From a virus, in the IMG/VR virus record IMGVR_UViG_3300042906_001392, positions 1-58,803 of that record: DNA of 58,803 nt, one strand, 5' to 3'. Every line of letters begins with the position of its first letter. Position 1 is the stretch's first letter. Both the position numbers and the translations under genes were made by a program. Shown one piece after another: positions 7,022 through 34,274 of this stretch. The notes beneath the pieces were generated by a model that worked only from the letters and a program-made list of their open reading frames with translations, did no database searches and was not told the DNA's origin.

Positions 7022-7051
7022 ACCTTACAGCAGGCGATATCAGATTTACAA
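7022..7051 (-). promoter_or_regulatory. Repeat promoter (TTGTAA-N18-TAAGGT)
   Basis: Consensus copy, proximal of two in tandem before the MoxR-VWA operon. Minus-strand reading is TTGTAAATCTGATATC, eight bases, TAAGGT. Confidence 0.75.
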
Positions 7052-7079
7052 AATCGCTTTACACCGTGAGGCAGTACCT

Positions 7080-7109
7080 ACCCTAGGGCATGCGATATCA
7101 GATTTACAA
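7080..7109 (-). promoter_or_regulatory. Repeat promoter (TTGTAA-N18-TAGGGT)
   Basis: Distal tandem copy 58 bases upstream of the previous one. The duplication may strengthen expression of the MoxR-VWA pair. Confidence 0.7.
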
Positions 7110-7180
7110 AATCGATTTATCCCCACATTACCTATAGAGCAATTTTTTGATTTTTTTGCAGGGGTGTAACAGGGTTTCCC

Positions 7181-7228
7181 CGGGGCTATCAGCTCTTATT
7201 GTTAGGCATACCTAACAGGTTCGGCCGG
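7181..7228. terminator. GC-rich hairpin region
   Basis: CCCCGG and CCGGGG flank an inner palindrome TGTTAGG-CATA-CCTAACA. It lies between the zinc-protein gene and the MoxR promoters, a likely terminator of the operon ending at 7266. Confidence 0.45.
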
Positions 7229-7265
7229 GGCTCTAGGGTCGAGCGGCCGGCAAATGACCGGTGGG

Positions 7266-7448
7266 TTAGTTACAACCGCAACAGGCAGAGCAGAAAACTA
7301 CTTCGCCATGTTCACCGCAGTCAGCGCGGCGCGACTCACAAATAATGCAATTTTCTGCAGACATGGCAGCCTGCGCACGACGCTCCGCCTTTTTCTCTCC
7401 ACGGTTCTTGCCTATCTTGTAGACAACATAACCACCGAGTAGACCCAC
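7266..7448 (-). CDS. Small protein with hydrophobic N-terminus and cysteine cluster
   Basis: 60 residues: a hydrophobic start (LLGGYVVYKIG), a basic stretch, then CIIC, C, CSACCGC. This suggests a membrane-associated zinc ribbon. The start is GTG at 7448, sharing a base with the TAG stop of the upstream gene. No strong ribosome site is seen, so translation is probably coupled. Confidence 0.55.
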   Translation of the reverse strand: MGLLGGYVVYKIGKNRGEKKAERRAQAAMSAENCIICESRRADCGEHGEVVFCSACCGCN

Positions 7449-7954
7449 TAGATACCAGCCTGTCTGTCAGCCTTAGCGTCCCTGACTTCCCAAAGACCTT
7501 TCTTGACCTTACGGAAGGTTGGACTCTCTTGGACGTATTTCAGAGTGGTCGGGTAGGAGAAGCCACACTGCTCCATAAGTTGCTCTGTGGTGAACTGCTC
7601 AAAATGGTGCTGGTTCGCCCACTTCAGGAACGAGTCCCACTTGTCAGCCCGCTTCTCGGTCTTGACCTCATCTACGACAGACTCCTCATCTACCTGAATA
7701 CCGCAGTACTCACTAGATACCTCTGCGATTACAGCGTCAGGAAGCGAATAGGAGAGCATGGCACGGATAGGACTGCCCTTTGCTCCGTCACGATTCCACA
7801 CTTGGAGAACATGTAATGCCCTTGTGTAGTCACTGATACCTTGGGCGACTTCCCGTGGCACGGCGAACTTATCCCCGAACTCGTCAATGGCTTCAGCCCA
7901 ACGAGAGGTGTGGATATCGGTAATGGTTGATTCGGTTATTGACTTTTTCAACAT
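7448..7954 (-). CDS. Hypothetical protein, possible winged helix
   Basis: 168 residues. The C-terminal part (FTTEQLMEQCGFSYPTTLKYVQESPTFRKVKKGLWEVRD) reads like a winged helix: helix, recognition helix, then a hairpin. A DNA-binding role is possible but unproved. AAAGGAAG precedes the ATG, and a repeat promoter with the GGTGGTGGAAGA element lies upstream at 7979-8031. Confidence 0.65.
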   Translation of the reverse strand: MLKKSITESTITDIHTSRWAEAIDEFGDKFAVPREVAQGISDYTRALHVLQVWNRDGAKGSPIRAMLSYSLPDAVIAEVSSEYCGIQVDEESVVDEVKTEKRADKWDSFLKWANQHHFEQFTTEQLMEQCGFSYPTTLKYVQESPTFRKVKKGLWEVRDAKADRQAGI

Positions 7955-7978
7955 AGTAGATACTTCCTTTCACCACCC

Positions 7979-8008
7979 ACCTTACAGGAGGCGATATCAG
8001 ATTTACAA
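7979..8008 (-). promoter_or_regulatory. Repeat promoter (TTGTAA-N18-TAAGGT)
   Basis: Drives the gene starting at 7954. The GGTGGTGGAAGA element sits immediately upstream, placing its TTGACG 17 bases from TTGTAA. Confidence 0.75.
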
Positions 8009-8014
8009 ACAGAC

Positions 8015-8031
8015 TCTTCCACCACCGTCAA
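8015..8031 (-). promoter_or_regulatory. TTGACGGTGGTGGAAGA element
   Basis: Full 17-base element directly upstream of a repeat promoter. Its TTGACG could act as a second -35, with TGTAAA of the repeat promoter as its -10. Confidence 0.5.
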
Positions 8032-8141
8032 GATAAGGCGGCCCCCGGAGGTCATCACATTTTTTGATTTTTTTGAAAATAAAGCTCCAGGCTCTTCGGC
8101 CGAACAGTGCTACTACCCACTATCCGGCCCGAGCCCCGGTC

Positions 8142-8420
8142 TTACCCTTTTGTTTTTTCGAAAGATTTGTTCCACGTGTGCGTGTAGTAGAAACTTGCAG
8201 TCGTCTTAAGCTTTCCCTCGATGTGGAATTTAACTCGAAGGTATTCAATAGCCGCCGCTACCTCTTCATCCGTGAAGTCGTTGTCCGTGTCGTTCTCCCA
8301 GTAGCCGTTTAAAAAATCGCTTTTTGCTGTCTCCACCGCATCTTCACCGGTGGTGGACAGTGTGTAGTAATTCTCCTCAAGAATCTCTGCAATTTGGGCG
8401 AGCACATCCATGTCAATCAT
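8142..8420 (-). CDS. Hypothetical protein
   Basis: 92 residues, acidic, no family recognised (IAEILEENYYTLSTTGEDAVETAK...). It overlaps the gene above by ATGA and belongs to the operon 8142-9446. Confidence 0.65.
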   Translation of the reverse strand: MIDMDVLAQIAEILEENYYTLSTTGEDAVETAKSDFLNGYWENDTDNDFTDEEVAAAIEYLRVKFHIEGKLKTTASFYYTHTWNKSFEKTKG

Positions 8421-8827
8421 TTCGCTTCGCCTTTCAACATCGTGTAGAGGTCGTCTATGACGCCACTAATACTTTCTTCAACAGTTTCGTTGATGTTGTT
8501 TTCAATTTTCTCTTCAATCTTTCCCAAGCCGGCAACGAATACATTCCACAGTTCCTCTAGTGATTCCTGCTCTTCATCCGTGAATTGGTCGCCCATGGGT
8601 ATGAACCTGATTTCTACAATGCCATCAGAAAGTAAATCCATAAGTTCTTCAGGGGTAATAGATTCACGGCGTTTAGCGGAATACATCCGTCCATCCTTGG
8701 TAAAAATACCAGTGGTCATTCGACGATTTGCGTCTCTGTAGATAGAGAGGGCTTCAACAATCAGGTTTATTTCATCGAGGGTGAAACGTTTGCTGATTTG
8801 TCCAGTTACTGCTTTTTTCTTAGCCAT
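8417..8827 (-). CDS. Hypothetical protein
   Basis: 136 residues. Basic N-terminus (AKKKAVTGQISKRF), then helical with an acidic middle (QFTDEEQESLEELW) and a long charged C-terminal helix (KIEEKIENNINETVEES). No family recognised. Its ATG shares a base with the preceding stop (TAATG). Confidence 0.65.
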   Translation of the reverse strand: MAKKKAVTGQISKRFTLDEINLIVEALSIYRDANRRMTTGIFTKDGRMYSAKRRESITPEELMDLLSDGIVEIRFIPMGDQFTDEEQESLEELWNVFVAGLGKIEEKIENNINETVEESISGVIDDLYTMLKGEAK

Positions 8828-9045
8828 TACAAGGTCCTTCCTGAGAATTCAAACCATTCATCATAGGTCATACCAATAGTTCCAACAAATTCTGCATTCT
8901 CATAGAAGTCCATGATAAAGCCCTCATGGGTGATTCCAATGTTTATGAACTTGGCGTTGACCTCGTCATAGCCACTAGTAAAGACGGTTACATCCTTGCG
9001 TGAATGCTGATTGACATCAAATGTCATCTTCTCATTGTCGCTCAC
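8827..9045 (-). CDS. Hypothetical protein
   Basis: 72 residues, mixed alpha/beta composition (VTVFTSGYDEVNAKFINIGITHEGFIMDFYENAEFVGTIGM), no family recognised. It overlaps both neighbours by 1-4 bases, as expected within one translationally coupled operon. Confidence 0.65.
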   Translation of the reverse strand: MSDNEKMTFDVNQHSRKDVTVFTSGYDEVNAKFINIGITHEGFIMDFYENAEFVGTIGMTYDEWFEFSGRTL

Positions 9046-9446
9046 TTGTCACCTGCCTCGTCTAGGTGTCGCTTGATTGAAGCCATTTCAGCCAAGTACT
9101 CATCAAACGACATTGCGAACGGGAACTCAATCATGTTGATGTTGTTCAGGAACAGCGAGTCCCTGAGGTCTAGTTGTTGCCAAAGGTCCAGCAGTTTGTA
9201 TCCAGCACTCAGGTACTGGTCAAACGCAGTCATCCATTCCTCGGCAATGCCTACAGACACCCAAGAGTCCTCACCTTCCACCAAGGAGAGCGAACTGCCG
9301 TTGTCCCAATCAACACCGATACACATAGCGCCAGCATTATCGTATGGCTCACGCGTAACGGTCCCTAGGTCACCCTTGCGAATCCGTGTATACGGGTCGC
9401 TAGTGCCGACTAGTTTGATTCTTTCTCCGACAAGTGTCTTTGTCAT
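9042..9446 (-). CDS. Hypothetical protein, possible SH3-like N-terminus
   Basis: 134 residues. VGERIKLVGTSDPYTRIRKGDLGTVTREPYDNAGAMCIGVDWDNG looks like a small beta-barrel (KOW/SH3-like) repeat. The rest is helical. The start at 9446 follows CTACTACTAAGGAG; an upstream in-frame ATG lies between the promoter and the leader and is rejected. First gene of the operon driven from 9475-9504. Confidence 0.65.
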   Translation of the reverse strand: MTKTLVGERIKLVGTSDPYTRIRKGDLGTVTREPYDNAGAMCIGVDWDNGSSLSLVEGEDSWVSVGIAEEWMTAFDQYLSAGYKLLDLWQQLDLRDSLFLNNINMIEFPFAMSFDEYLAEMASIKRHLDEAGDK

Positions 9447-9474
9447 GATTTTCTCCTTAGTAGTAGTTGAGGAC

Positions 9475-9504
9475 ATCTTAGGGTATCCGATATCAGATTT
9501 ACAA
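9475..9504 (-). promoter_or_regulatory. Repeat promoter (TTGTAA-N18-TAAGAT)
   Basis: Drives the four-gene operon 9446-8142. The TAA stop of the upstream gene (9499-9501) is part of the TTGTAA hexamer, so there is no spacer between cassettes. Confidence 0.75.
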
Positions 9505-9780
9505 TTTTTTAGGCATCGGGTTGCTCTGACTCACATTGTAGAGCCAGTCATCTGATGTTGGTGCTGTTTCTTCCTTTAGCCTGCGTCCACTACTTTGTCC
9601 TTCAATGATTGTGATGCCGAGAGAATCTAGGTAGTCTCCAGCTTTCATGTGAATTTCGGTCATGAGGTTGTGAACCCCATCCTTTTCAACATCGTCGCTT
9701 TCAAACAGTTCTTTATCCAAAGCGAATGTAAAATTGACTTCGTAAAAAGGTGTATCTGCATCTATTTCTTTGCGTGTCAT
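9499..9780 (-). CDS. Hypothetical protein
   Basis: 93 residues, no family recognised (FYEVNFTFALDKELFESDDVEKDG... YLDSLGITIIEGQSSGRRL). Its stop lies inside the next promoter. It follows the XRE gene by one base and is probably co-transcribed with it. Confidence 0.6.
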   Translation of the reverse strand: MTRKEIDADTPFYEVNFTFALDKELFESDDVEKDGVHNLMTEIHMKAGDYLDSLGITIIEGQSSGRRLKEETAPTSDDWLYNVSQSNPMPKKL

Positions 9781-9781
9781 T

Positions 9782-10000
9782 TCAGATGCCTTCTAGAACA
9801 TCTGATGGCTTCACCTTGAGCGCTCCGCAGAGCAAGATGAGTGACTGAAGGCTAGGTGAGAAGTGTCCGTTCTCAATCCGGTTGATGGTCTTGCGCTCGA
9901 GCCCCGCCTTCTTTGCCAACGCATCTTGCGAGAGTTCTCGCTCAATACGCAAATCACGAAGTCTTGCACTAACCCGTGCTTCTTTCTTTTCGGTATTCAT
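9782..10000 (-). CDS. XRE/Cro-CI family HTH regulator
   Basis: 72 residues with the whole length used by a Cro/CI helix-turn-helix: LRDLRIERELSQDALAKKAG, ERKTINRIENGHFSPSL, LCGALKVKPSDVLEGI. It binds DNA, probably as a dimer. CTAACAAGGAG precedes the ATG. It is the middle gene of an operon started by a repeat promoter at 10732, which makes it a candidate regulator of the promoter family, though nothing in the sequence proves this. Confidence 0.85.
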   Translation of the reverse strand: MNTEKKEARVSARLRDLRIERELSQDALAKKAGLERKTINRIENGHFSPSLQSLILLCGALKVKPSDVLEGI

Positions 10001-10033
10001 GTTTCTCCTTGTTAGGTGTTTATTTGGTTTATT

Positions 10034-10699
10034 TCAGTTTGCACTGAAAATCTGTTGTGAGGTCATGGCTGTATCCATGCCTTCTGCAATCTCAAATGTG
10101 AGAGCGTCTTTCCATTCCGAATACTTTTCGTCAAAGTTCTCGTCGTCGTCGTCGTATTCAGGTTGTCCCTGCATTTCGTGTTCACCTTCTGCAACAATCT
10201 CTCCTTTGTGAAAGACCATGTAGCCAGCAAAGAAATCTGCTTCCTCTGTGAAGTGCATTCCGAATACAAGTTCAGGGAACTGTTCGGAGATGTTCCTCAT
10301 AAGACCAACCGCAGGGCTCCAAGCACTTTCCCAGTACAGCGTTATTGAGTTGCTGTTCTCGTCAAATGTGTCCTCGTCAAAATCAACACGGCAAGCACCC
10401 CATTTAGTGTCCCAGTTAGCATTCGCCCAGTCGTACCAGTCCTTGTGACCGTACTTAGCGAGATTTGACTCTTGTTGCTTGCGGTGTTCTTCTGCCTTCT
10501 CTTCACCAACATATCCTGAAACTGTTTCGTGCAGTTCTGTTGGAATTGGGAATAGTTGGTTCATGTCCCATTCTGTTCTGTTCCATTCAGGAATTGCTTT
10601 CCACTCTTCAGTCTGCTCAATGCGAATAGCCTCAATGAACCGCTTCAGTTCTTTGTTGCTTCCACGAACTTCTCCGTATTGGTTGCACCAGTTAGGCAT
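10034..10699 (-). CDS. Api92-like protein with ferredoxin-like fold
   Basis: 221 residues. It starts MPNWCNQYGEVRGSNKELKR, then LFPIPTEL and WYDWANANWDTKWGA, the signature of the YubB/Api92-like ferredoxin-fold family (DUF1281-type) found in phages and plasmids. The role is unknown. The C-terminus is acidic (PEYDDDDENFDE). AAAAGGAG follows a CACCTACTACTAC leader. First gene of the operon that includes the XRE regulator. Confidence 0.75.
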   Translation of the reverse strand: MPNWCNQYGEVRGSNKELKRFIEAIRIEQTEEWKAIPEWNRTEWDMNQLFPIPTELHETVSGYVGEEKAEEHRKQQESNLAKYGHKDWYDWANANWDTKWGACRVDFDEDTFDENSNSITLYWESAWSPAVGLMRNISEQFPELVFGMHFTEEADFFAGYMVFHKGEIVAEGEHEMQGQPEYDDDDENFDEKYSEWKDALTFEIAEGMDTAMTSQQIFSAN

Positions 10700-10731
10700 T
10701 TCATTCTCCTTTTGTAGTAGTAGGTGATGTA

Positions 10732-10761
10732 ACTATACAGGTACAAATATCAGATTTACAA
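10732..10761 (-). promoter_or_regulatory. Repeat promoter (TTGTAA-N18-TATAGT)
   Basis: One of the best -10 hexamers in the family. Drives the Api92-like, XRE and 9499 genes. The core has GATATT in place of GATATC. Confidence 0.75.
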
Positions 10762-10762
10762 A

Positions 10763-11260
10763 TTAGTACCATGCGTCAGACCCGTTACATTCATTGGCAA
10801 CCCAGCGCAACCACCAAATGGCGTACTTGACTTCCTTGTCCAAGTTCTCACCGTCTTTGGTTACGGTTCCCATTTCGGTCATGCGGTTTTCCATGTCGTC
10901 TGCCAAAGCGAGGCATGATGATGGTGACTTGTATGTGCCATCTTCGTTGTCGCCATAGAACGAATACTCAAAATCAGGAAGTTCCAGTGCTTCTATGAGG
11001 AAGTTGCCGTACTTACCCCTATACCAGCAGTCTGTTCCGAACATGCCAGTAACACTTCCTTCTTGCAAATCAGTCTTTGATACAGAGATGAGGTAAGGGC
11101 ATTTGCCTTGTGCCTGCGTTTCTCTGCAGTCAATTCGCTTTTCAGATAATCCTGTTTCTTCGTCAACAATGGCTACGCCGTCTTTGTCAAGAATGTCAAC
11201 TTTTACAGCAGTGCCAAGACGCTCGCAGGCGTATCGGTGTGGGATGTTGTCTAAGCCCAT
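10763..11260 (-). CDS. Conserved phage protein (MGLDNIP family)
   Basis: 165 residues beginning MGLDNIPHRYAC, a start shared by a family of actinophage proteins of unknown role. Cysteines in ERLG...DCRETQAQGKCPY and FGTDCWYRGKYGNF may bind metal. CTACTACTAAGGAG precedes the ATG. It is a single-gene cassette with its own repeat promoter and an upstream hairpin. Confidence 0.7.
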   Translation of the reverse strand: MGLDNIPHRYACERLGTAVKVDILDKDGVAIVDEETGLSEKRIDCRETQAQGKCPYLISVSKTDLQEGSVTGMFGTDCWYRGKYGNFLIEALELPDFEYSFYGDNEDGTYKSPSSCLALADDMENRMTEMGTVTKDGENLDKEVKYAIWWLRWVANECNGSDAWY

Positions 11261-11291
11261 GTGGGAATCTCCTTAGTAGTAGGTGAGTACC

Positions 11292-11321
11292 ACTGTAGCG
11301 ACCCTGATATCAGATTTACAA
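11292..11321 (-). promoter_or_regulatory. Repeat promoter (TTGTAA-N18-TACAGT)
   Basis: Drives the gene starting at 11260. The GGTGGCGGAAGA element lies directly upstream (11325-11340), and a LexA-type box 87 bases upstream. Confidence 0.75.
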
Positions 11322-11324
11322 CTC

Positions 11325-11340
11325 TCTTCCGCCACCGTCA
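11325..11340 (-). promoter_or_regulatory. TGACGGTGGCGGAAGA element
   Basis: Variant with GGTGGCGG. It directly abuts a repeat promoter, as at 8015, 14380 and 17369. Confidence 0.45.
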
Positions 11341-11407
11341 TGATAATAGAGGCGTATATGACCTACGGTTTTCCGGTGCGCAGGTCAGGCATCATGCCGG
11401 CATGAAA

Positions 11408-11423
11408 GCGAACACCTGTTCGC
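11408..11423. promoter_or_regulatory. LexA/SOS-box-like palindrome
   Basis: GCGAACACCTGTTCGC, a perfect 6-4-6 palindrome arm pair. Its GAACACCTGTTC core is the reverse complement of GAACAGGTGTTC, the form known at the mycobacterial recA promoter. It lies next to the 11426 hairpin and upstream of a repeat promoter. Confidence 0.6.
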
Positions 11424-11425
11424 AT

Positions 11426-11464
11426 AGCCCCGGTGACTCAGTGGCCGCCTTGTACACCGGGGCT
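11426..11464. terminator. AGCCCCGGTG / CACCGGGGCT hairpin
   Basis: 10-bp perfect stem just past the 3' end of the gene ending at 11476. One of the family of cassette-separating hairpins. Confidence 0.65.
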
Positions 11465-11475
11465 TTACGAGATGA

Positions 11476-11787
11476 TTATTCGCTTTGAGCTATAACCAAA
11501 CTTCCATCGAGAATTTGCCATCCGTCTTCATGGTCATTCCAAATGATGGAGACTACCTCTTTGATTCCGTCTAGGTAATAGAAGACATCATCATCCTGAA
11601 CTCCGAAGTCATCCCACTGCAGGTAGACAGGGTCTTTACTGAATGAGAGGTAGTAACTCCTTGTGTCAGAGTCATCATCCCATTGAACTAGTGCGTCCAT
11701 GCCAACCAGGATTCCCTCTTTAGCAATTACATTTTTCAGGTATTCCTTCAGTAATCGGAGCGTGAGTAGTGCTTTTCTAATCATCAT
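11476..11787 (-). CDS. Hypothetical protein
   Basis: 103 residues, no family recognised. Basic N-terminus (IRKALLTLRLLKEYLKNVI), then an acidic, beta-rich remainder (MDALVQWDDDSDTRSYYLSF). It overlaps the gene above by ATGA. Confidence 0.65.
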   Translation of the reverse strand: MMIRKALLTLRLLKEYLKNVIAKEGILVGMDALVQWDDDSDTRSYYLSFSKDPVYLQWDDFGVQDDDVFYYLDGIKEVVSIIWNDHEDGWQILDGSLVIAQSE

Positions 11788-12101
11788 GCGCTCACTACAT
11801 CTATAAGTTGTACGAATGAATCCAGTGGCTCGCTTGCGTCAGGGTACGCCCTCATTGCGTCATCAAGGAACAATTGGTAAGCACCCAAGTTGTCATGAAA
11901 GTAGCGATTCGCTCCGCCATCTCCATAATTTTCGACTCGGCAAACAGTAATCCCTTTTCTTTGAATTTCTGCAGTCCATACGATTCCTTTAGACGTTTCC
12001 ATCTCGTGGATTATCTTGAAGTCGTACTGGCTAGCAATGTCGTCCACTGCTGGCTCTGTCACGAAGAGTTTTAGTGACGGTGGAAGTGTTGAATAAAGCA
12101 T
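11784..12101 (-). CDS. Hypothetical protein
   Basis: 105 residues, alpha/beta-like (YDFKIIHEMETSKGIVWTAEIQRKGITVCRVENYGDGGANRYF), no family recognised. CAACTACTAACAAGGAG precedes the ATG. No promoter repeat lies between it and the gene at 12139, so both are probably transcribed from 12693. Confidence 0.65.
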   Translation of the reverse strand: MLYSTLPPSLKLFVTEPAVDDIASQYDFKIIHEMETSKGIVWTAEIQRKGITVCRVENYGDGGANRYFHDNLGAYQLFLDDAMRAYPDASEPLDSFVQLIDVVSA

Positions 12102-12138
12102 GATTTCTCCTTGTTAGTAGTTGTTTGAATTCTAGTCG

Positions 12139-12657
12139 TCAGCAGATTTGAAATCCACCGCAGTTCTCTAGGAACTCTGCGAACCGCTTGACATTCTCCA
12201 CATCAAACGGGTAGGAAGTGAGCCACGATTCTTTAGTGCCGATTCCATCACAGGCATTACACCAGCCATAAGTGCGTCCAGTAAGAATCTGATTTTCAGG
12301 AGAGAGTTCTTTAGTGGGCATTCCCATTTCCACGCCTACCTCGTCATTGCGAATGCCAGTGCATTCACAGAGTTGGCACGCTTCACGGGGAAGTGAGGAA
12401 CGCCACTCATTGTAAGTCTTTGCGTACTTCTCAACCGTGCCATTTTCAAGGTCTATCTTGAGTGACCAAGCCAATGATTCAGCCAATGCTTCATCTAGCC
12501 CGTCACCGTCGTTTGAGTGCCAGTACTCGCAACCGCTAGCAATGTCGTCATAGTTGTTGCAGATAAAGTCTGCCAGTGGACGCCAGTACCACACATTGTT
12601 GCGGAAGTAACTGCCCGTTTCATTCTTTGGATTTACTCCAATGACATCCATTCCCAT
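12139..12657 (-). CDS. Conserved phage protein (MGMDVIG family)
   Basis: 172 residues beginning MGMDVIGVNPKNETGSYFRN with NVWYWRPLADFI, a signature shared by phage proteins of unknown role. CQLCECTG and CNACDGIG form a zinc-binding insertion. ACAAGGAG precedes the ATG after a CTACTACTACTA leader. Confidence 0.7.
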   Translation of the reverse strand: MGMDVIGVNPKNETGSYFRNNVWYWRPLADFICNNYDDIASGCEYWHSNDGDGLDEALAESLAWSLKIDLENGTVEKYAKTYNEWRSSLPREACQLCECTGIRNDEVGVEMGMPTKELSPENQILTGRTYGWCNACDGIGTKESWLTSYPFDVENVKRFAEFLENCGGFQIC

Positions 12658-12692
12658 TTTCTTGCTCCTTGTTAGTAGTAGTAGGTAATGAA

Positions 12693-12722
12693 ATCTTACA
12701 GTATCAAATATCAGATTTACAA
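12693..12722 (-). promoter_or_regulatory. Repeat promoter (TTGTAA-N18-TAAGAT)
   Basis: Drives the three-gene unit 12657-11476. Core carries GATATT. Confidence 0.75.
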
Positions 12723-12745
12723 AATCGAGCTAGAGCCCCGGGCTT

Positions 12746-13096
12746 CTAGTCGCTGTTCGCTTCTATGTACTGACGCACCGCTTCCCGTAGGGCAAAACTT
12801 CGTTCAATACATTTTGACATTGCTATTCGGTTCAGTTGTTCCAAGTCATTCTGCGATATCCTAAACACGCAAATTGGGTTTATTTTTCCTTGCTCTAAGT
12901 GCTCGTCGTGCGGCGGTAACAGATTGGCTTTTCGTGACGCCATTATCCGCTTGTTAGACGTAGATATAGAAACATTCATTCTCTGCGCAACATAGCGCTG
13001 TACTGGAATGCGCTTGCTTAGTGCTTCTCTATAAAGGTCTGCAACAACCTCTAGTTCTTCGTGTGTTGTTTTTCTACCTTTATGCGTTCCTATCAT
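12746..13096 (-). CDS. DNA-binding protein (HTH plus RHH-like)
   Basis: 116 residues. The N-terminus (HEELEVVADLYREALSKRIPVQRYVAQRMNVSISTSNKRIM) resembles the actinobacterial HTH pattern in which a serine-rich recognition helix precedes a basic wing. The C-terminus (VFRISQNDLEQLNRIA, RSFALREAVRQYI) looks like a ribbon-helix-helix. A regulator is likely. It overlaps the gene above by ATGA. Confidence 0.6.
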   Translation of the reverse strand: MIGTHKGRKTTHEELEVVADLYREALSKRIPVQRYVAQRMNVSISTSNKRIMASRKANLLPPHDEHLEQGKINPICVFRISQNDLEQLNRIAMSKCIERSFALREAVRQYIEANSD

Positions 13097-13560
13097 ACGC
13101 TTGCTCCATCAAATGGACATTGAGCAACTTCACCGAATACAGCCTCGTACAAGTTACGCCCGTCTTGCCACTCACTCCAGTCACCATCTGACGAGATAGA
13201 GACACAAGAGCCGTAGATTTCTTTCGCCCGAATAAGTATCGCCGTAACTACAGCGTCATACGGTTTCATAGCAGTCTTGCAAAAATCAAAGATTTCAGGC
13301 TCATTTTTTCTCCACTCAACTTGAGTTGGCATTGCTTTCCAAGTAAAGGTTTCGTGAGACATATCATCTATGCCATTGAGACTGAACTCGCCTTCCGTGA
13401 ATTGAGGTGAAGTTCCATTCTCTCCACTCCAGTCGCCTAGTTTTATGCCAATGGTGTATGCGTGTTCGCAAATAGCCTTAGCGTCTAGTGCAAGTTTGCC
13501 GTACATATAGGCAGACCCAGCGTTGTTTCGTGGTCGGTAGTTGTAATGCGTGTAACCCAT
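13093..13560 (-). CDS. Conserved phage protein (MGYTHY family)
   Basis: 155 residues beginning MGYTHYNYRPRN, a start found in many phage proteins of unknown function, followed by a conserved-looking WSGENGTSPQF and ETFTWKAMP. GAAAGG precedes the ATG after a CACCTACTAAC leader. First gene after the promoter at 13591. Confidence 0.7.
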   Translation of the reverse strand: MGYTHYNYRPRNNAGSAYMYGKLALDAKAICEHAYTIGIKLGDWSGENGTSPQFTEGEFSLNGIDDMSHETFTWKAMPTQVEWRKNEPEIFDFCKTAMKPYDAVVTAILIRAKEIYGSCVSISSDGDWSEWQDGRNLYEAVFGEVAQCPFDGASV

Positions 13561-13590
13561 AGTTATTGCCTTTCGTTAGTAGGTGGTAGT

Positions 13591-13620
13591 ACCTTATCAG
13601 ACCCGATATCAGATTTACAA
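13591..13620 (-). promoter_or_regulatory. Repeat promoter (TTGTAA-N18-TAAGGT)
   Basis: Consensus copy. The stop codon of the gene ending at 13615 forms part of its TTGTAA. Confidence 0.75.
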
Positions 13621-13821
13621 TTGCTCATAAATCATCAGTTCTTCTTCATCAGAGAATGGATTTGAGTGCCGACCAATTCCAGTTACCCACATTTTTCGAC
13701 CTTGCTGACCGCTGTCACCAATTGCGTCTTGCACCTGTGCTATCGCAAGCCCCGCTGCCGCTCCATCATCAACGCCTGTTACATCAAGCGTGACCATTAC
13801 TGTCACTCGGTATGTATTCAT
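13615..13821 (-). CDS. Small hypothetical protein
   Basis: 68 residues (MNTYRVTVMVTLDVTGVDDG... GRKMWVTGIGRHSN), beta-rich, possibly a ferredoxin-like small fold. The start at 13821 uses TAATG overlap with the gene above; a longer upstream frame lies inside that gene and is rejected. The stop is inside the next promoter. Confidence 0.65.
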   Translation of the reverse strand: MNTYRVTVMVTLDVTGVDDGAAAGLAIAQVQDAIGDSGQQGRKMWVTGIGRHSNPFSDEEELMIYEQL

Positions 13822-14090
13822 TAGTAAGTACTCCAATCGTAGTTGTCGTTTTTGTGTGCGATTTCCTCTGAACAAACTCCGATTACCTTTAGAGTTTCGC
13901 CGTCAATGATACGGCTACATTTCTCGCAAAGATAAACCTGCCCGTCCCAATCTCCATAGATAGTTGGCGAGACAATCTCTCCAGTCCTTAGGCAAGAGTA
14001 AAAGCCCTCGTAGTTTGGTTGGTTGCCACATAGGCACTGGAACCAATCAGTAGTGCCACCTATGAACTCCTCAAATAGTCGGTTGCTCAT
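13821..14090 (-). CDS. Small zinc-finger-like protein
   Basis: 89 residues with CLCG, C (FYSCLRTG) and CEKC, consistent with a zinc site. The rest is unknown. ATGA overlap with the gene above. The operon 14335-13615 runs from one repeat promoter. Confidence 0.65.
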   Translation of the reverse strand: MSNRLFEEFIGGTTDWFQCLCGNQPNYEGFYSCLRTGEIVSPTIYGDWDGQVYLCEKCSRIIDGETLKVIGVCSEEIAHKNDNYDWSTY

Positions 14091-14335
14091 TTGTCCACTC
14101 TCCCGTCCATAATCATTGCGTAGCGGATTAGTTCCTCAACCAATTCCACACACTCCCAATCGTTCGCCTCTTGCCCGTCAATATCTTTCACGGCGAGAAT
14201 ACCGTCAAGGACAAACCCTGCATAGCCGTCCTGCATTTCGCTGGTTGGTTCCGCATTTGGGTCACTGGCGAGATTATAGAAAGGTTGTAGGTATCTGTCG
14301 TGCCACTCTTGCGCTGTTATCTTGTCTGTTTCCAT
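14087..14335 (-). CDS. Hypothetical protein with probable leaderless start
   Basis: 82 residues (METDKITAQEWHDRYLQPFY...), no family recognised. The start at 14335 is chosen because the promoter's -10 TATGAT ends seven bases before this ATG, so transcription would begin at its A. Earlier in-frame ATGs lie inside the -10 itself. No ribosome site is present or needed. Confidence 0.65.
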   Translation of the reverse strand: METDKITAQEWHDRYLQPFYNLASDPNAEPTSEMQDGYAGFVLDGILAVKDIDGQEANDWECVELVEELIRYAMIMDGRVDK

Positions 14336-14343
14336 AAGTACCA

Positions 14344-14373
14344 TCATAGGGAACCCGATATCAGATTTACAAA
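14344..14373 (-). promoter_or_regulatory. Repeat promoter (TTGTAA-N18-TATGAT)
   Basis: Strong -10. Predicted start is the A of the ATG at 14335, a leaderless transcript. GGTGGCGGAAGA element directly upstream. Confidence 0.75.
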
Positions 14374-14379
14374 CCACCT

Positions 14380-14396
14380 CTTCCGCCACCGTCAAG
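14380..14396 (-). promoter_or_regulatory. TTGACGGTGGCGGAAGA element
   Basis: TTGACG is 17 bases from the TTGTAA of the repeat promoter, the same arrangement as at 8015. Confidence 0.5.
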
Positions 14397-14474
14397 ATAA
14401 TAAGGGTGGGTAGGTAGTCGTTTTTTTGCAGAGCGATTTATTTATTTTTTGCGATTTTTTTTATTTTTCTGGAT

Positions 14475-14514
14475 AGCCCCGCAGCACATTCTGGGCCGTA
14501 CTGAGGCCGGGGCT
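14475..14514. terminator. AGCCCCG / CGGGGCT hairpin
   Basis: 7-bp stem after the gene ending at 14531, preceded on the plus side by T-rich DNA. Confidence 0.6.
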
Positions 14515-14530
14515 CCTGGTGGAAAATAGC

Positions 14531-14752
14531 TCACTCCCTCACCAATGGAGTTGCCCATCGGTCTTCGCTGTCGTAAAAACATGTATTGCAGACGAGACTA
14601 TCTATGTCGTCATCCCAGACTGGCTCACTCCCGAAGGAACGCACGGACATCTCCATTCCGCATGAGTCGCAATTACCACCGTCACCACGAATATGCACCG
14701 CTCCATGCACTAGTGGTAGTGCGTTTATTTTTGCGATATATGCCTCGCTCAT
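14531..14752 (-). CDS. Small zinc-ribbon-like protein
   Basis: 73 residues with CDSCGMEM and CNTCFY, a CxxC...CxxC pair spaced as in zinc ribbons. The start at 14752 follows GGGAG by eight bases; the first in-frame codons upstream lie in the neighbouring gene. Confidence 0.65.
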   Translation of the reverse strand: MSEAYIAKINALPLVHGAVHIRGDGGNCDSCGMEMSVRSFGSEPVWDDDIDSLVCNTCFYDSEDRWATPLVRE

Positions 14753-14757
14753 GTCGT

Positions 14758-15027
14758 TCACTCCCACGCCCTATTGAGCAGTATGCCTGCGAACGGATTG
14801 GGATATCGCACTTCGTCATTGAGCCAACGCTCGCTATCGGAGTGTTGAGTCTCGCAGTCACGGAATGTCTTAGTAGCGAACGCCTTACCGTCCTTCATGA
14901 GGCGAACTAGCAACTTGCCAGTGCCGTCTTCCCATAGGTCCAGTTGGTAGGTAGCGTCAATGCCGCCGAACGGGTCAGTTTGTTCACCGAATACGGAGAG
15001 TTTGTGAGTCATTACTGCAGTGCTCAT
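14758..15027 (-). CDS. Hypothetical protein
   Basis: 89 residues (MSTAVMTHKLSVFGEQTDPFGGIDATYQLDLWEDGTGKLL), beta-rich, no family recognised. The start at 15027 has AGGTGG upstream and shares a base with the stop above (TAATG). Confidence 0.65.
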   Translation of the reverse strand: MSTAVMTHKLSVFGEQTDPFGGIDATYQLDLWEDGTGKLLVRLMKDGKAFATKTFRDCETQHSDSERWLNDEVRYPNPFAGILLNRAWE

Positions 15028-15317
15028 TACTTGCCACCTCTTTCGGAGTAGCAAGCAACGGCTTCGGTCAGTGTGGTGCAGTAGTCACCGCTATAACGCT
15101 CCCAGCCACTAGGGCGAGCCACAACGGTCCATACGGCGAACTTGTGGAATGGGTTGCTTGGGTTATAGCAGACGGTAATCCACGAGGCGTATGAGTCGTC
15201 AATTTCACGGTCATTCTTTTTCGTAAGTGCCAAAACAATTATGTCATTGGCAATTACTTCACCAAGTTTTAGTTCAGCGAATGTCAGGTCCACTGAATTG
15301 TCGGTTAGTAGGTACAA
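15027..15317 (-). CDS. Hypothetical protein, TTG start
   Basis: 96 residues (LYLLTDNSVDLTFAELKLGEVIANDIIVLALTKK...). The open frame continues upstream through the promoter repeat (read as FVNLIS), so the true start must lie below it. TTG at 15317 follows AAAGGA by six bases after a CAACTACTAC leader. No family recognised. Confidence 0.65.
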   Translation of the reverse strand: MYLLTDNSVDLTFAELKLGEVIANDIIVLALTKKNDREIDDSYASWITVCYNPSNPFHKFAVWTVVARPSGWERYSGDYCTTLTEAVACYSERGGK

Positions 15318-15346
15318 GGTATTTCCTTTCGTAGTAGTTGAGATAG

Positions 15347-15376
15347 ACACTACACGAGCCGATATCAGATTTACAA
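15347..15376 (-). promoter_or_regulatory. Repeat promoter (TTGTAA-N18-TAGTGT)
   Basis: Drives the three-gene unit 15317-14531. Confidence 0.7.
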
Positions 15377-15386
15377 AATTGTTAGG

Positions 15387-15425
15387 AGCCCCGCTGGGTA
15401 GGTAGTCAGGCATCGAGGCGGGGCT
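15387..15425. terminator. AGCCCCGC / GCGGGGCT hairpin
   Basis: 8-bp stem followed by TTTT on the plus strand. Confidence 0.65.
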
Positions 15426-15440
15426 TTTCACGCGCATAAG

Positions 15441-15476
15441 GAAGCCCTGCCCACCAGTTACGGCAGGCAGGGCTTC
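15441..15476. terminator. GAAGCCCTGCC / GGCAGGGCTTC hairpin
   Basis: 11-bp perfect stem directly downstream of the gene ending at 15508. Gene-specific terminator paired with the generic hairpin at 15387. Confidence 0.7.
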
Positions 15477-15507
15477 GGTTGTTCGTAGGGGTGAAAGGGG
15501 TAAAGCC

Positions 15508-15945
15508 CTAGAACAAGCCCATTATTGCGTCAGCGAGTGCGCCACGAGCATTACCGTCATCGGTAATCGTTTCGTCAGGTGTGTCCGAGAAGCGCATAAC
15601 GCTAGCCCAACCGTCTTTGCCAGCAAACACCATTAGGCGTACACGCCTGCGCTGTGGGTGCTGTGAAGGTGCTACCTCGTTTTCAGGGTCATCGCTTTCG
15701 GTGATAGGTGAAGCCCAACCACAAGTGACGAGGGCAACATAATCGCTCACCTTCGCTACTGCTCGGCTGTCATCGCTGTCAAGTAGGTCGTACACATCGC
15801 CGTGTTCGCCTGCCAAGACCATAGCCACGCCTTCATCGGTTTCGTTGATAGCAAAGAACAATGCCGTTTTCAGGTCAAAGCCCCCCTCTAATTGCTCGGA
15901 GATAAGCCTCTCGGCAAACTCCGCTTTATCCAGTACATCGCTCAT
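15508..15945 (-). CDS. Hypothetical protein
   Basis: 145 residues (MSDVLDKAEFAERLISEQLEGG... VAMVLAGEHGDVYDLLDSDD). No family recognised, but the middle part HPQRRRVRLMVFAGKDGWASVMRF looks like a beta-rich globular domain. CGAAAGGA precedes the ATG at 15945. The longer frame through the promoter repeat (FCKSDIG) is rejected. Confidence 0.65.
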   Translation of the reverse strand: MSDVLDKAEFAERLISEQLEGGFDLKTALFFAINETDEGVAMVLAGEHGDVYDLLDSDDSRAVAKVSDYVALVTCGWASPITESDDPENEVAPSQHPQRRRVRLMVFAGKDGWASVMRFSDTPDETITDDGNARGALADAIMGLF

Positions 15946-15988
15946 CGGTAGTTCCTTTCGGTAGTAGTTGATTAGATAAGCACTACTC

Positions 15989-16018
15989 ACCTTAGCCAGC
16001 CCGATATCAGATTTACAA
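15989..16018 (-). promoter_or_regulatory. Repeat promoter (TTGTAA-N18-TAAGGT)
   Basis: Drives the single gene 15945-15508. Confidence 0.75.
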
Positions 16019-16064
16019 AACACGGGTAGCCGATATGAGAGCCCCGCTGGGCTAATCTCTTTGG

Positions 16065-16254: not shown

Positions 16255-16273
16255 TTTCGGTAGGTGGATAGGA

Positions 16274-25079: not shown

Positions 25080-25105
25080 TGCTCTCCCTTTCAGTAGGTA
25101 ACTAA

Positions 25106-25135: not shown

Positions 25136-25171
25136 GATACCCGTGCGGGGCTATTTCGAGCCTTTATGGAT

Positions 25172-25201: not shown

Positions 25202-25230
25202 TTACTTATCCACGAGAAAAGGGGAAAGAA

Positions 25231-25347
25231 ATGAAAGTATCATCACACACAAAAGCCAAGTGCCAAGAGTGCGAGCGAGTATTTGACTTGCTTGACGAGG
25301 AACAGGCAAATGAGTTTTTTCACGGTCACGATTGCGAGGGACAATGA
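25231..25347 (+). CDS. 38-residue zinc-finger peptide
   Basis: MKVSSHTKAKCQECERVFDL with a later HGHDC: one CxxC and HxHxC set, a likely zinc finger. AAAAGGGGAAAG precedes the ATG. First gene of the plus-strand operon; overlaps the next by ATGA. Confidence 0.6.
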   Translation: MKVSSHTKAKCQECERVFDLLDEEQANEFFHGHDCEGQ

Positions 25348-25511
25348 GCAAGAACATTATCTGCCCTACTTGTAGTGGCTTTATTCCTAACGGGCACACG
25401 CCAGGTTTATATCCAGGTGCTATCTCACGGAAAGACAACAAAACAGAAATTTGTTCGCAATGCGGTGAAGACGAGGCAATGGAAGATTTCTTCCGTATGA
25501 TGAAGAAATGA
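25344..25511 (+). CDS. 55-residue zinc-ribbon protein
   Basis: CPTC near residue 7 and CSQCGEDEAM at 37, with SRKDNKTEI between. This is a common phage zinc-ribbon type of unknown partner. Overlaps both neighbours by ATGA. Confidence 0.65.
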   Translation: MSKNIICPTCSGFIPNGHTPGLYPGAISRKDNKTEICSQCGEDEAMEDFFRMMKK

Positions 25512-25882
25512 GCGACACACCGAAAAAGCCATTCAATGATGTATTTGTTGGAAAAGAATACGAAGATTGGAAAGCAATTGGCGAACAGCGAGGCTGGGAG
25601 AGCGGGGCTAAAGCGCCCACTCGGCAAGAAATACAGGAAGCACTTGAGGCAGGTGACGAAACTACCTTGCTTATGGACGGGTTTGACGAAGCCTTTATCG
25701 GTTGGTCACGCCGTATCAACGAACCACTACTTGCCGTCTACGACTATGACGCAATAATCAAGGTTTGTGTTGAGCGAGACGGTATGGATTTTGAGGAAGC
25801 CGTTGAGTATGTGGACTACAATGTCATAGGTGCTTGGGTTGGCGAACAGACACCAATAATCGTTATGCCGTTTATCCACTAA
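25508..25882 (+). CDS. Conserved phage protein (DGFDEAFIGW family)
   Basis: 124 residues. MDGFDEAFIGWSRRINEPLL, then AVYDYDAIIKVC and AVEYVDYNVIGAWVGEQTPI form a pattern shared by many phage proteins of unknown role. It is the third gene of the plus-strand operon before WhiB. Confidence 0.7.
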   Translation: MSDTPKKPFNDVFVGKEYEDWKAIGEQRGWESGAKAPTRQEIQEALEAGDETTLLMDGFDEAFIGWSRRINEPLLAVYDYDAIIKVCVERDGMDFEEAVEYVDYNVIGAWVGEQTPIIVMPFIH

Positions 25883-25899
25883 TTTACTATCGGAGAAAA

Positions 25900-26217
25900 A
25901 TGACAGCAGTAGCAGTAAGAGTGAGCGCACCACCGAGTGGCGATTTGCCTTGTACTGGCAGGCAGGATTTGTTTTATGGCAAGTACGCCGAAAGACCTGA
26001 AGCACGATTGCGCCGTGAAGAAAAAGCCAAAAAAGTTTGCGCTACTTGTTCACAGGCGACTATTTGCCGTGATTACGCCCGTAGTAATGGCGAAGTGTTT
26101 GGTATTTGGGGCGGAGAAACAGAAATGGAAAGATACAGCGCAGGATTTATGTTGTCAGTACCACCTCACTTGTCACGGAGAGTTGTTACTATGAAAGAAA
26201 GATATGGGAACTTATAA
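25900..26217 (+). CDS. WhiB-family iron-sulfur regulator
   Basis: 105 residues. Cysteines at LPC (about 17) and in VCATCSQATIC supply the [4Fe-4S] ligands, and GIWGGETEMER is the WhiB turn. WhiB proteins occur in actinobacteria and their phages, bind sigma factor region 4 and redirect transcription. CGGAGAAAA precedes the ATG at 25900; an upstream frame start is less likely. The phage could use it to modulate host or its own promoters. Confidence 0.85.
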   Translation: MTAVAVRVSAPPSGDLPCTGRQDLFYGKYAERPEARLRREEKAKKVCATCSQATICRDYARSNGEVFGIWGGETEMERYSAGFMLSVPPHLSRRVVTMKERYGNL

Positions 26218-28926: not shown

Positions 28927-28956
28927 CTGTAAATCTGATATCGGGCTTACTAGGCT
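28927..28956 (+). promoter_or_regulatory. Repeat-promoter variant on the plus strand (CTGTAA-N18-TAGGCT)
   Basis: Third plus-strand copy, between the helicase gene and the gene at 29003. Confidence 0.65.
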
Positions 28957-32047: not shown

Positions 32048-32830
32048 TTACTTAGTGACGGTGCGCTTCTTTGGTGACTTCTTAGTGACTTGCTTCTTTG
32101 GGGCGGTGCGCTTGCTCACTGTCACTGATTTGTTTGGCGTGGGTAGCACTGTCACGGTAATCGCTCTAGCACTCTCAACCACTAGCACTGTCGTTGTTGT
32201 CGTTGTCGTAGGTGCTTCGGTAATCACTGGCTCACTCTCAACCACTGTCACTGGCTCACTGTCTGCTACTGCTTCGGCTGTCTCGGATACAGGGACTGTC
32301 GTAGTCGTGGGTGCGATAGTCGTTGTCGTAGTCGTAGGGGCGAGGGTAGTCGTAGTCGTAGTCGTGGTCGTAGGTGCTTCGCTCACGGCTTCATTACAAC
32401 TAACTGAACAGTCGCCATTGGTGACTACTGGATTACTACTAGCACCAACCAACTGATAGACGGCACTACGAGCGAGGGCGGTATCTATTCCGTCACGCCA
32501 TAGGGCGAGCATAAAGTTAGGGCGATAGCCGTTGCCACCTGAACCGTGACCAATACCAACTCCGACATATTCGCACACTGCGAACCATTGGTGCGCTTTC
32601 GCTATCGCCTTACCTAGTGCGCTATGACCACCATTGGAATAGGTAACTAATCTCTCAAATGCTTCAGTGCCTATCTCGGTGTCAATAATCGTTATGACTG
32701 TCGGTTGCTGTGACGAGGGTGCTTCTCTCGGCTCACTACACTCACTTGCTCTCGCTTCGGTGATAGTGACAAGGGGTAGCGATAGCGATAGGGCTAGGGC
32801 TAATGCGATAAAGGTTCGTGCTTGCTTCAT
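32048..32830 (-). CDS. Secreted protein with Thr-rich linkers
   Basis: 260 residues. Sec signal MKQARTFIALALALSLSLP to about ARAS, then a globular part with HSALGKAIAKAHQWFAVCEYVG and RPNFMLALW near 80-120, two cysteine pairs, three poly-Thr runs and a basic tail. It is a secreted or surface-exposed protein. The globular domain resembles resuscitation/lysozyme-like secreted proteins loosely. Start at 32830 follows GAGAGAG. Confidence 0.65.
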   Translation of the reverse strand: MKQARTFIALALALSLSLPLVTITEARASECSEPREAPSSQQPTVITIIDTEIGTEAFERLVTYSNGGHSALGKAIAKAHQWFAVCEYVGVGIGHGSGGNGYRPNFMLALWRDGIDTALARSAVYQLVGASSNPVVTNGDCSVSCNEAVSEAPTTTTTTTTTLAPTTTTTTIAPTTTTVPVSETAEAVADSEPVTVVESEPVITEAPTTTTTTTVLVVESARAITVTVLPTPNKSVTVSKRTAPKKQVTKKSPKKRTVTK

Positions 32831-32854
32831 AGTAACTCTCTCTCGGTATGGGCT

Positions 32855-32880
32855 ACCCGTAAGGCTACCCGTAGGCATTG
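32855..32880. promoter_or_regulatory. Paired ACCCGTA element
   Basis: ACCCGTA at 32855 and 32867, 12 bases apart, ending GGCATTG, 25-50 bases upstream of the secreted protein's start. Confidence 0.5.
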
Positions 32881-33245: not shown

Positions 33246-33535
33246 AGTGCGTACTCTCCACGCTTACGGCGATAGTGCGATACAAAGTCATCACTGTCGT
33301 AGTCACAAGGCGTCCACACTATGTCGGCTTCGCTAAAGGTATCGTCAAGGTGTAAGCGAACTACTACATAGTCAAATGCGTCATAGGCGTTGTATGCGAT
33401 AAACCTCATACAGCCTACGAGGGTAGAACGGTGTTCGTAGTGACTAGGTAAGTCATAGCGACACATACTCCAAGCGTCACCATAAGAGGGACACTCAACC
33501 ACTGCGTACCTGCGTCTATCTTTCTCAATAGTCAT
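33242..33535 (-). CDS. Hypothetical protein, leaderless start
   Basis: 97 residues (YAVVECPSYGDAWSMCRYDLPSHYEHR...), no family recognised. The promoter's -10 TACGCT ends six bases before the ATG, predicting a leaderless transcript. It heads a two-gene unit. Confidence 0.6.
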   Translation of the reverse strand: MTIEKDRRRYAVVECPSYGDAWSMCRYDLPSHYEHRSTLVGCMRFIAYNAYDAFDYVVVRLHLDDTFSEADIVWTPCDYDSDDFVSHYRRKRGEYAL

Positions 33536-33541
33536 AGTGTA

Positions 33542-33571
33542 AGCGTAGGGTAGGTGATATCAGAATTACTA
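33542..33571 (-). promoter_or_regulatory. Repeat-promoter variant (TAGTAA-N18-TACGCT)
   Basis: TTCTGATATC core, diverged -35. Drives the leaderless gene at 33535. Confidence 0.6.
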
Positions 33572-33573
33572 AA

Positions 33574-33661
33574 TGGGGTAAGCAAGTAGGTAAGAGTAAG
33601 CAACGAGGTAAGCGAGTAGGTAGGTAAGCGAGTAAGTAAGTAGGTAGGTAAGTAGGTAGGT
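33574..33661. repeat. Low-complexity GTAAG/GTAGGTA tandem repeat
   Basis: About 88 bases built of imperfect 4-base units (GTAA, GTAG, GGTA), such as GTAAGCGAGTAGGTAG repeated. No gene crosses it. It separates the promoter at 33542 from an ACCCGTA element. Confidence 0.6.
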
Positions 33662-33664
33662 GTT

Positions 33665-33690
33665 ACCCGTATGCTACCCGTGTGCCTTGC
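33665..33690. promoter_or_regulatory. Paired ACCCGTA element
   Basis: ACCCGTA at 33665 and ACCCGTG at 33676, 11 bases apart. Confidence 0.45.
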
Positions 33691-33691
33691 G

Positions 33692-33778
33692 TTAGTCATA
33701 CTCTCTCAACTTCAGTGCGAAATAGATAAGGGCGATACTTGCTAGGCAGAATAACTCAAGCACTGTCTCACCACTCAT
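33692..33778 (-). CDS. 28-residue membrane peptide
   Basis: MSGETVLELFCLASIALIYFA then LKLREYD: one hydrophobic helix. TAATG overlap with the stop above. A small membrane peptide, role unknown. Confidence 0.5.
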   Translation of the reverse strand: MSGETVLELFCLASIALIYFALKLREYD

Positions 33779-33978
33779 TAGTCATTGCCTTGCGTATCGT
33801 TGCTATCCACTGCGTAGTCACTGCTGTCAAGCGTGAACTTAGGCATAACGAATAGCGTGTTGCCTATGCTGTATGCGTTACGGCTTGCGTTGTAAATTGC
33901 GTCAGGGAATAAGCGAACTAAGTCAATTGCTTTCAGTGGCGTATCGCTTAGGTGAACTATGTTGCGTATTCGTGCCAT
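33778..33978 (-). CDS. Hypothetical protein
   Basis: 66 residues (MARIRNIVHLSDTPLKAIDLVRLFPD...), no family recognised. The start at 33978 is uncertain: the ribosome site is weak, and a GTG at 34035 gives a longer frame overlapping the gene above. Confidence 0.5.
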   Translation of the reverse strand: MARIRNIVHLSDTPLKAIDLVRLFPDAIYNASRNAYSIGNTLFVMPKFTLDSSDYAVDSNDTQGND

Positions 33979-33991
33979 TGTCGTTGTCGCT

Positions 33992-34216
33992 TTACTTCGT
34001 ACTAGCGACTGCGTGTGCGTAATAAATATCGTCACACCACTCTGCCAACTTCACTAAGTCGGCGACTAACGAACCTTGCGAGTTGAGCAACCCACGCAAC
34101 CCATCAGGCAATGTTTGTGAATTGCTGTCACCACTGCGTGTTGTGTTGTGTATCGCCGTGATTAGGTCGCTAGCAATTTTTGCTATGTCACCAAAGTCGT
34201 TTGCGTTGTATACCAT
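33992..34216 (-). CDS. Small hypothetical protein
   Basis: 74 residues (MVYNANDFGDIAKIASDLITAIHNTTR... LVADLVKLAEWCDDIYYAHAV), helical. GGGGGC precedes the ATG at 34216; the longer frame reads through the promoter. Confidence 0.6.
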   Translation of the reverse strand: MVYNANDFGDIAKIASDLITAIHNTTRSGDSNSQTLPDGLRGLLNSQGSLVADLVKLAEWCDDIYYAHAVASTK

Positions 34217-34244
34217 AATGCCCCCTTGTGTAGTAGTTACGGTA

Positions 34245-34274
34245 AGCATAGCGTATGCGATATCAGATTTACAA
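34245..34274 (-). promoter_or_regulatory. Repeat promoter (TTGTAA-N18-TATGCT)
   Basis: Rightmost copy of the family. Drives 34216-33692. LexA-type box 30 bases upstream. Confidence 0.75.

Follow-up and report, generated by a model that had tools for sequence, protein, structure and literature searches.

An array of 31 promoter-like elements is found in a phage whose relatives keep the layout of the element but not its core sequence. The array lies in the IMG/VR virus record IMGVR_UViG_3300042906_001392, of which positions 1 to 58,803, the whole stretch analysed here, are referred to as the window. Each element has a 16-base core, TTGTAAATCTGATATC, located at about -36 to -21, which in 30 of the 31 ends 8 bases before a TANNNT hexamer, the usual -10 of the actinobacterial main sigma factor. 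Alignment of orthologous sites indicates that the core changes as a set between near species. We favor, at a probability of about 0.55, an explanation in which these predicted host-sigma promoters are bound at the -35/spacer region by a phage-specific, MotA-like reader that has repeatedly changed its specificity.

The elements form a fixed-spacing family confined to one block of small genes

A search for the core at up to 3 mismatches yielded 33 matches compared with 0.48 expected by chance (100 shuffles, largest 2). Two of these (18670 and 19948, plus strand, with 3 mismatches apiece) imperfectly mirror the minus-strand copies 18695 and 19973, with which they overlap. The remaining 31 copies all carry at most 2 mismatches, correcting the 32 copies, 31 with the core, given in a preliminary description of this DNA. 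Its strand assignment holds, with 28 copies on the minus strand and three on the plus strand (3694, 25172 and 28927). A TANNNT hexamer follows TTGTAA after an 18-base spacer in 30 of the 31 copies; the preliminary description had assigned this spacing to 31, and the sole exception is 3694 on the plus strand. The repeat is thus confirmed, and its excess over chance and fixed spacing bear out a promoter-like family. Across the aligned copies (n = 31), the -10 hexamer carries T at position 1 in 31, A at position 2 in 30 and T at position 6 in 31. Further skews are seen at positions 16-19 (G, G/C, G, T) and just ahead of the core, where 24 of 31 copies have T. Copies are nearly identical within one genome, the window set holding one G-type copy and one copy with T at position 8, and a half-dyad, A.C.GATATC.G.T, is visible in the window core. 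A generic sigma-70 scan of 7000-26000 returned 21 sites compared with 21.9 in shuffles, only 3 of them belonging to this family; such a scan therefore cannot see these promoters.

The copies, identified by match and alignment, are listed below; a promoter element comprises the core, 8 nucleotides and TANNNT.

3694-3709, plus: core copy, 1 mismatch, lacking TANNNT at the usual spacing
7022-7051, minus: promoter element
7080-7109, minus: promoter element, in tandem with the 7051 copy
7979-8008, minus: promoter element
9475-9504, minus: promoter element
10732-10761, minus: promoter element of the operon with the Cro/CI-type gene
11292-11321, minus: promoter element
12693-12722, minus: promoter element
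13591-13620, minus: promoter element
14343-14372, minus: promoter element
15347-15376, minus: promoter element
15989-16018, minus: promoter element
16713-16742, minus: promoter element
17334-17363, minus: promoter element
17990-18019, minus: promoter element
18221-18250, minus: promoter element
18666-18695, minus: promoter element
18911-18940, minus: promoter element, TTGGAA variant
19475-19504, minus: promoter element
19944-19973, minus: promoter element
21341-21370, minus: promoter element
22040-22069, minus: promoter element
22562-22591, minus: promoter element
22925-22954, minus: promoter element
23419-23448, minus: promoter element
24693-24722, minus: promoter element
25106-25135, minus: promoter element, 2 mismatches, back to back with the 25172 plus-strand copy
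25172-25201, plus: promoter element
28927-28956, plus: promoter element
33542-33571, minus: promoter element, 2 mismatches
34245-34274, minus: promoter element

A longer contig (G001, 172,519 bases) matches all 58,803 window bases with 1 mismatch; with up to 2 mismatches allowed, its copies are exactly the 31 of the window. All lie in one 31-kb small-gene block at 95.5 to 126 kb of G001, so the array is not phage-wide, contrary to what had been proposed. A home-made gene caller places about 57 genes in the block instead of the about 45 tiny genes first described.

The copies are placed ahead of genes. A start codon with a Shine-Dalgarno-like stretch lies within 260 nucleotides of 28 of the 30 TANNNT copies, at a median of 29 nucleotides from the predicted transcription start, although the criterion is crude and one match stands 1 nucleotide before that start. 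Such a start codon is found 12-51 nucleotides past the predicted start in 23 of the 28 minus-strand copies compared with 15.25% of 2000 random positions. The preliminary description had each copy open a small operon, to be compared with these 28 of 30; 7109 and 7051 stand in tandem ahead of one gene. A GGGGCT arm is present within 60 nucleotides upstream of 13 of the 28 minus-strand copies (control 7.2%), and terminator-like sites number 31 compared with 16.9 in shuffles (standard deviation 5.4). Upstream hairpins are not stronger than at random positions, with folding energies of -10.0 and -9.8, respectively. Separately, 14 of the 28 minus-strand copies have a CTACTA-rich leader between the predicted start and the ribosome site (control 5.2%).

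Related phages keep the layout with different cores

Relatives were collected using four proteins, with the best 80 of 354 used for one of them. In 55 stretches, which are hand-picked loci and contigs, some from one phage, we counted 8-mers at a fixed distance before TANNNT and compared them with an AT...A mock anchor and Markov shuffles. A -10-locked repeat exceeds both controls in 31 of the 55, in G009 and L125 only just; being anchored on TANNNT, the search would have missed repeats with other -10s. Our own grouping of 31 profiled stretches (GC-rich L125 left out) gives about 18 cores. As the -10 in the core profiles is present by construction, locking rests on the window alignment and the anchored 8-mer count. 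Besides TTGTAAATCTGATATC in the window, cores include TTGGAAATTTGGTATC/T (G008, L117/L151), TTGGAAATCTGAAGCACC (L119), TT.GTATCTGTCCTG (G016/G017), TTGTCGGttagGGGTGGG (G011/G013, 48 sites each), ACTTGTTAgtCGtcCGTAACG (L133) and CAGAATATTCTGTCTGTCG (L139). According to the core profiles, several of these dialects lack TTG at -35 with the spacing retained. The preliminary description had proposed looking for the core plus -10 in related phages; the -10-locked layout does recur, while the core sequence differs.

On a tree of 24 phages, TCTG-containing cores represent one side of a branch (100/99). The window phage (A) and relative B are weakly sisters (63/90). B, a further relative C and L120 possess a common core not found in A, L116 and L119, and these forks of the tree are weak (41/24, 79/58). 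No array was found in Microbacterium phage Zooman (40 kb).

Two observations stand beside the dialects. The element GACGGTGGYGGA occurs in 8 minus-strand copies in the window (17382, 14393, 11339, 8029, 3837, 2597, 1352 and 715), four directly upstream of promoter copies, and is also repeated in relatives with other dialects. L362 is a phage-like contig in an archaeal (Poseidoniaceae) metagenome-assembled genome, presumably misbinned, that encodes a 64% relative of the AAA protein; in the genome-contig scan, the archaeal contig shows 3 copies of another -10-locked 8-mer.

Orthologous cores change together while spacers drift

Orthologous promoters of A, B and C were paired as reciprocal best matches of the downstream 120 nucleotides. 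Between A and B (24 pairs), core columns 3, 8 and 11 differ in 24, 20 and 23 pairs, respectively. Between A and C (19 pairs), the same columns differ in 19, 19 and 19 and column 15 in 16, while between B and C (20 pairs) columns 3, 8 and 11 differ in only 0, 2 and 2 and column 15 in 13. Orthologous spacers are 0.62, 0.76 and 0.61 identical compared with 0.36, 0.41 and 0.36 for non-orthologous pairs. Spacers thus drift site by site while cores change as a set. Because the spacers remain orthologue-specific, whole copies were not swapped in and the sites changed in place. Identical substitutions at some 20 sites with drifting surroundings suggest a trans-acting factor. One relative, G021, is mixed: across its 10 sites, columns 3, 8, 11 and 15 take six states.

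A Cro/CI-type protein is a candidate reader for one clade

Genes considered as readers, the DUF1281_C gene beside one of them and the second WhiB gene of the window are as follows.

9782-10000, minus: 72-residue Cro/CI-type helix-turn-helix (HTH) protein (PF01381), candidate reader
10034-10699, minus: DUF1281_C protein, gene preceding the HTH gene
3185-3556, plus: HA-domain and HTH protein, helix nearly invariant across dialects
7448-7954, minus: 168-residue conserved protein with a modelled C-terminal winged helix, first gene after promoter 8008
25900-26217, plus: WhiB protein inside the block
48084-48476, minus: WhiB protein outside the block

The 72-residue protein matches PF01381 (HTH_3) with an E-value of 2.4e-14 and has C.AhdI, P22 C2 and the 434 repressor as solved relatives. 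An HTH_3 gene directly follows the DUF1281 gene in 10 of 10 TCTG-class phages with a visible slot and in 0 of 11 others, with the proviso that one small open frame may separate the two genes in L139 and L125. An HTH_3 search of 12 records gave 6 with and 6 without a match, in agreement with the TCTG split. The protein is a candidate reader for the clade with a TCTG core, albeit a doubtful one. Possibly it recognizes the constant TCTG, the rest being read by a partner or another protein; it could also be unrelated.

Other candidates were rejected. The MarR-like protein at 86179-86637 of G001, left of the window, is present in relatives, but its recognition helix is nearly invariant, as is the helix of the HA-HTH protein. 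The 213-residue HTH protein at 45602-46243 is conserved, and its best PHROG match is annotated Rnase E. The WhiB protein inside the block has the same C-terminus in A and B. The 136-residue protein at 8417-8827 evolves fast (A-B 67%, A-C 62%, B-C 83%, L133-G015 69%), and its low-confidence model (mean predicted local distance difference test score, pLDDT, 74.8) is helical and shows no clear HTH; L120 has a C-type core, yet its protein is 52% like that of A. The 168-residue protein is modelled as a winged helix (mean pLDDT 85.9, predicted template modelling score 0.58), for which no PDB match was found at E <= 0.001, the best being the Rok DNA-binding domain at 0.071; its C-terminal domain is conserved across dialects. 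Residues that split {B, C, L120} from {A, L116, L119, L149} are scattered over many proteins, none of them in the HTH_3 protein. Searches for MotA and AsiA gave matches in 0 of 12 records, with no control genome positive.

A phage reader acting with host polymerase is weighed against other explanations

In the explanation we favor, the array would be a regulon of about 30 promoters whose TANNNT -10 is recognized by host RNA polymerase carrying the main sigma factor. The 16-base core would be the binding site of a phage DNA-binding protein working with the polymerase at a fixed distance, comparable to MotA at T4 middle promoters, and would time the block of small genes. The specificity of this reader would change repeatedly in the lineage, with selection then rewriting the whole set of sites and leaving one dialect per phage. 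We infer three things: the sites work as promoters, the core is recognized by a protein, and this protein is an activator. The lack of TTG in several dialects with the spacing kept fits an element replacing the -35; combined with the exact -10 spacing, it likely favors joint action with the polymerase over a plain operator. A broader version is tentative: each species of this widespread lineage, made up of large actinophages, might drive its small-gene block from a private promoter code, with the -10 fixed and a 16-20-base phage part and its reader replaced repeatedly, dozens of promoters switching together. Such a code would insulate the programme of each phage from co-infecting relatives or their repressors, and G021 would represent a genome caught mid-switch.

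Several observations weigh against a switching reader. No locked repeat is seen in 24 of the 55 stretches, though many of these fall short of the block. A related box in G009, G010 and L125 (TAGATAAGT/TAGATAACT) is mostly not promoter-locked, with 5 of 46 TAGATAAGT boxes at the usual offset in G009 and 12 of 68 in G010. The match between HTH_3 and TCTG cores amounts to one event on the tree; A, B, C and L120 share one HTH_3 recognition helix despite the difference in core, and the protein has no residue that separates {B, C, L120} from {A, L119}. The helices of the HA-HTH, MarR-like and 213-residue HTH proteins are likewise conserved across dialects, among those listed. As to the boxes themselves, TAGATAAGT occurs 68 times in G010 and 46 times in G009 and TAGATAACT 31 times in L125, in clusters 17-60 nucleotides apart.

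The core could instead be an operator, a rather unlikely possibility in our estimate, with strong host-sigma early promoters shut off jointly by the Cro/CI-type protein (9782-10000) as a repressor covering -36 to -21. The mode of action would be that of cluster A mycobacteriophage repressor sites, but with the sites at promoters. The gene does belong to the block, where one copy precedes its operon, and the solved relatives of its product are repressors and controller proteins. The half-dyad of the window core, a perfect palindrome in L139 (CAGAATATTCTG), the copy at 3694 without a -10 and the decoupled boxes of G009 and G010 point the same way, and in cluster A repressor sites are known to change across the whole set, as described in the passages compared (PMC6550527). 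An operator needs no exact distance to the -10, yet 30 of 30 copies share one; moreover, several dialects lack TTG at -35 and half of the array-bearing phages lack the Cro/CI-type protein. Improbable in our view is that no special reader exists and a strong host promoter was copied round the genome, its uniformity kept by recombination. Copies are indeed near identical in each genome and gene gain or loss often ends nearby, but the cores changed in place with their own spacers and downstream DNA kept, so that converted tracts would be at most 16 bases, and the host main sigma factor does not change between phages 95% alike. A phage sigma factor or phage RNA polymerase is, in our view, a very improbable reader of the core. 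T7-like phages do change promoters and polymerase together. Sigma70_r2 was found in 0 of 12 records with 10 of 14 control genomes positive, and the -10 stays TANNNT in all dialects found by the TANNNT-anchored search. None of the 12 records matched RNA_pol (PF00940), but neither did any control genome, so this says little.

Gene gain and loss is frequent near promoters and equally so at other gene junctions

Alignment of the block to B contains 16 gaps longer than 100 nucleotides, 9 with an edge within 35 nucleotides of a promoter compared with a circular-shift mean of 2.5 (0 of 5000 as high). B-only segments carrying their own copies sit just upstream of 18250 and 18695. Per base, junctions with and without promoters catch gap edges equally (14 gaps in 8014 bases and 9 in 5420, respectively), and the promoters are therefore not shown as swap points. 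The preliminary description had likened the layout to promoter/stem-loop (PeSL) cassettes; repeated promoters amid variable small genes are common to both. As to stem-loops, upstream folding energy is at control level, and the GGGGCT arm and terminator-like sites are enriched. The likeness is fair as a picture; as a mechanism it is only a possibility.

Genes around the block and host group

Genes around the block encode, among others, an AAA protein, a helicase, a primase/helicase, SSB, ribonucleotide reductase and WhiB. WhiB (PF02467) is present in 20 of 20 relatives searched and twice in the window. As first proposed, this suggests that the phage infects actinobacteria. Cluster A phages are temperate and carry integrase or partition genes; here, no Phage_integrase match was found in 12 records that are fragments (controls 14 of 14) in a search limited to this family, and megablast of 25 kb against named phages gave no match. 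Further phage genes encode a carbamoyltransferase (38932-40365), a TauD-type dioxygenase (53916-54716) and a LysM-like protein (24747-25079). The neighboring stretches 36984-37679 and 37962-38656 are 78% alike and seemingly tandem duplicated genes. At 32048-32878, a 276-residue protein with a signal-like start carries long threonine runs; similar tails are found in many relatives.

Comparison with known systems

It has long been asked how a global regulator can acquire a new specificity while its dozens of targets keep working, mostly in systems with few sites and distant species. Here, in phages 95% alike, about 30 orthologous sites per genome can be compared on both sides of a switch and, apparently, in its course. 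If the reader is found, the order of steps would be readable from sequence and testable in reporters, and the dialects would also supply mutually distinct promoter cores for actinobacteria.

T4-type PeSL cassettes, reportedly described by Arbiol et al. in 2010, similarly place repeated promoters between small genes of variable content. They differ in that the promoters studied here catch gap edges no more often per base than other gene junctions and the stem-loops are no stronger than control.

Repeated intergenic motifs in actinophages and site-set change in cluster A are already known, and the following refers to the passages of these reports that were compared (PMC7302621, PMC3203893, PMC4351075, PMC6550527). 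Microbacterium clusters EC, EG and EI carry 5-12 copies of repeated intergenic motifs, fewer than here, located 22-30 bp before start codons in EC (PMC7302621). In cluster K (SAS/ESAS, PMC3203893) and cluster O (17-bp repeats, PMC4351075), short repeats also precede small actinophage genes but, unlike here, are tied to starts or for the most part lack a promoter link. The compared descriptions of these clusters mention no -10-locked core that changes across the whole set. Cluster A operators and stoperators comprise 20-30 sites per genome, mostly on one strand, with a motif that varies by subcluster along with the repressor (PMC6550527, PMC9283540); most of these sites lie away from promoters, whereas 30 of 31 copies here are locked to a -10. 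Within the library and terms covered, the literature searched contained no report of set-wide promoter dialects in phages. Nor did it describe any lineage with about 18 cores and 30-48 -10-locked promoters in each genome.

T4 middle promoters carry a MotA box over the -35 region, 12 +/- 1 bp from the host -10, in the passages compared (PMC2988021). Both systems possess dozens of copies of a phage box at a set distance from a host -10, seen here in 30 of 31. In contrast to T4, the host is actinobacterial and the 16-base core ends 8 bases before the -10, often with TTG, and varies in sequence between near relatives.

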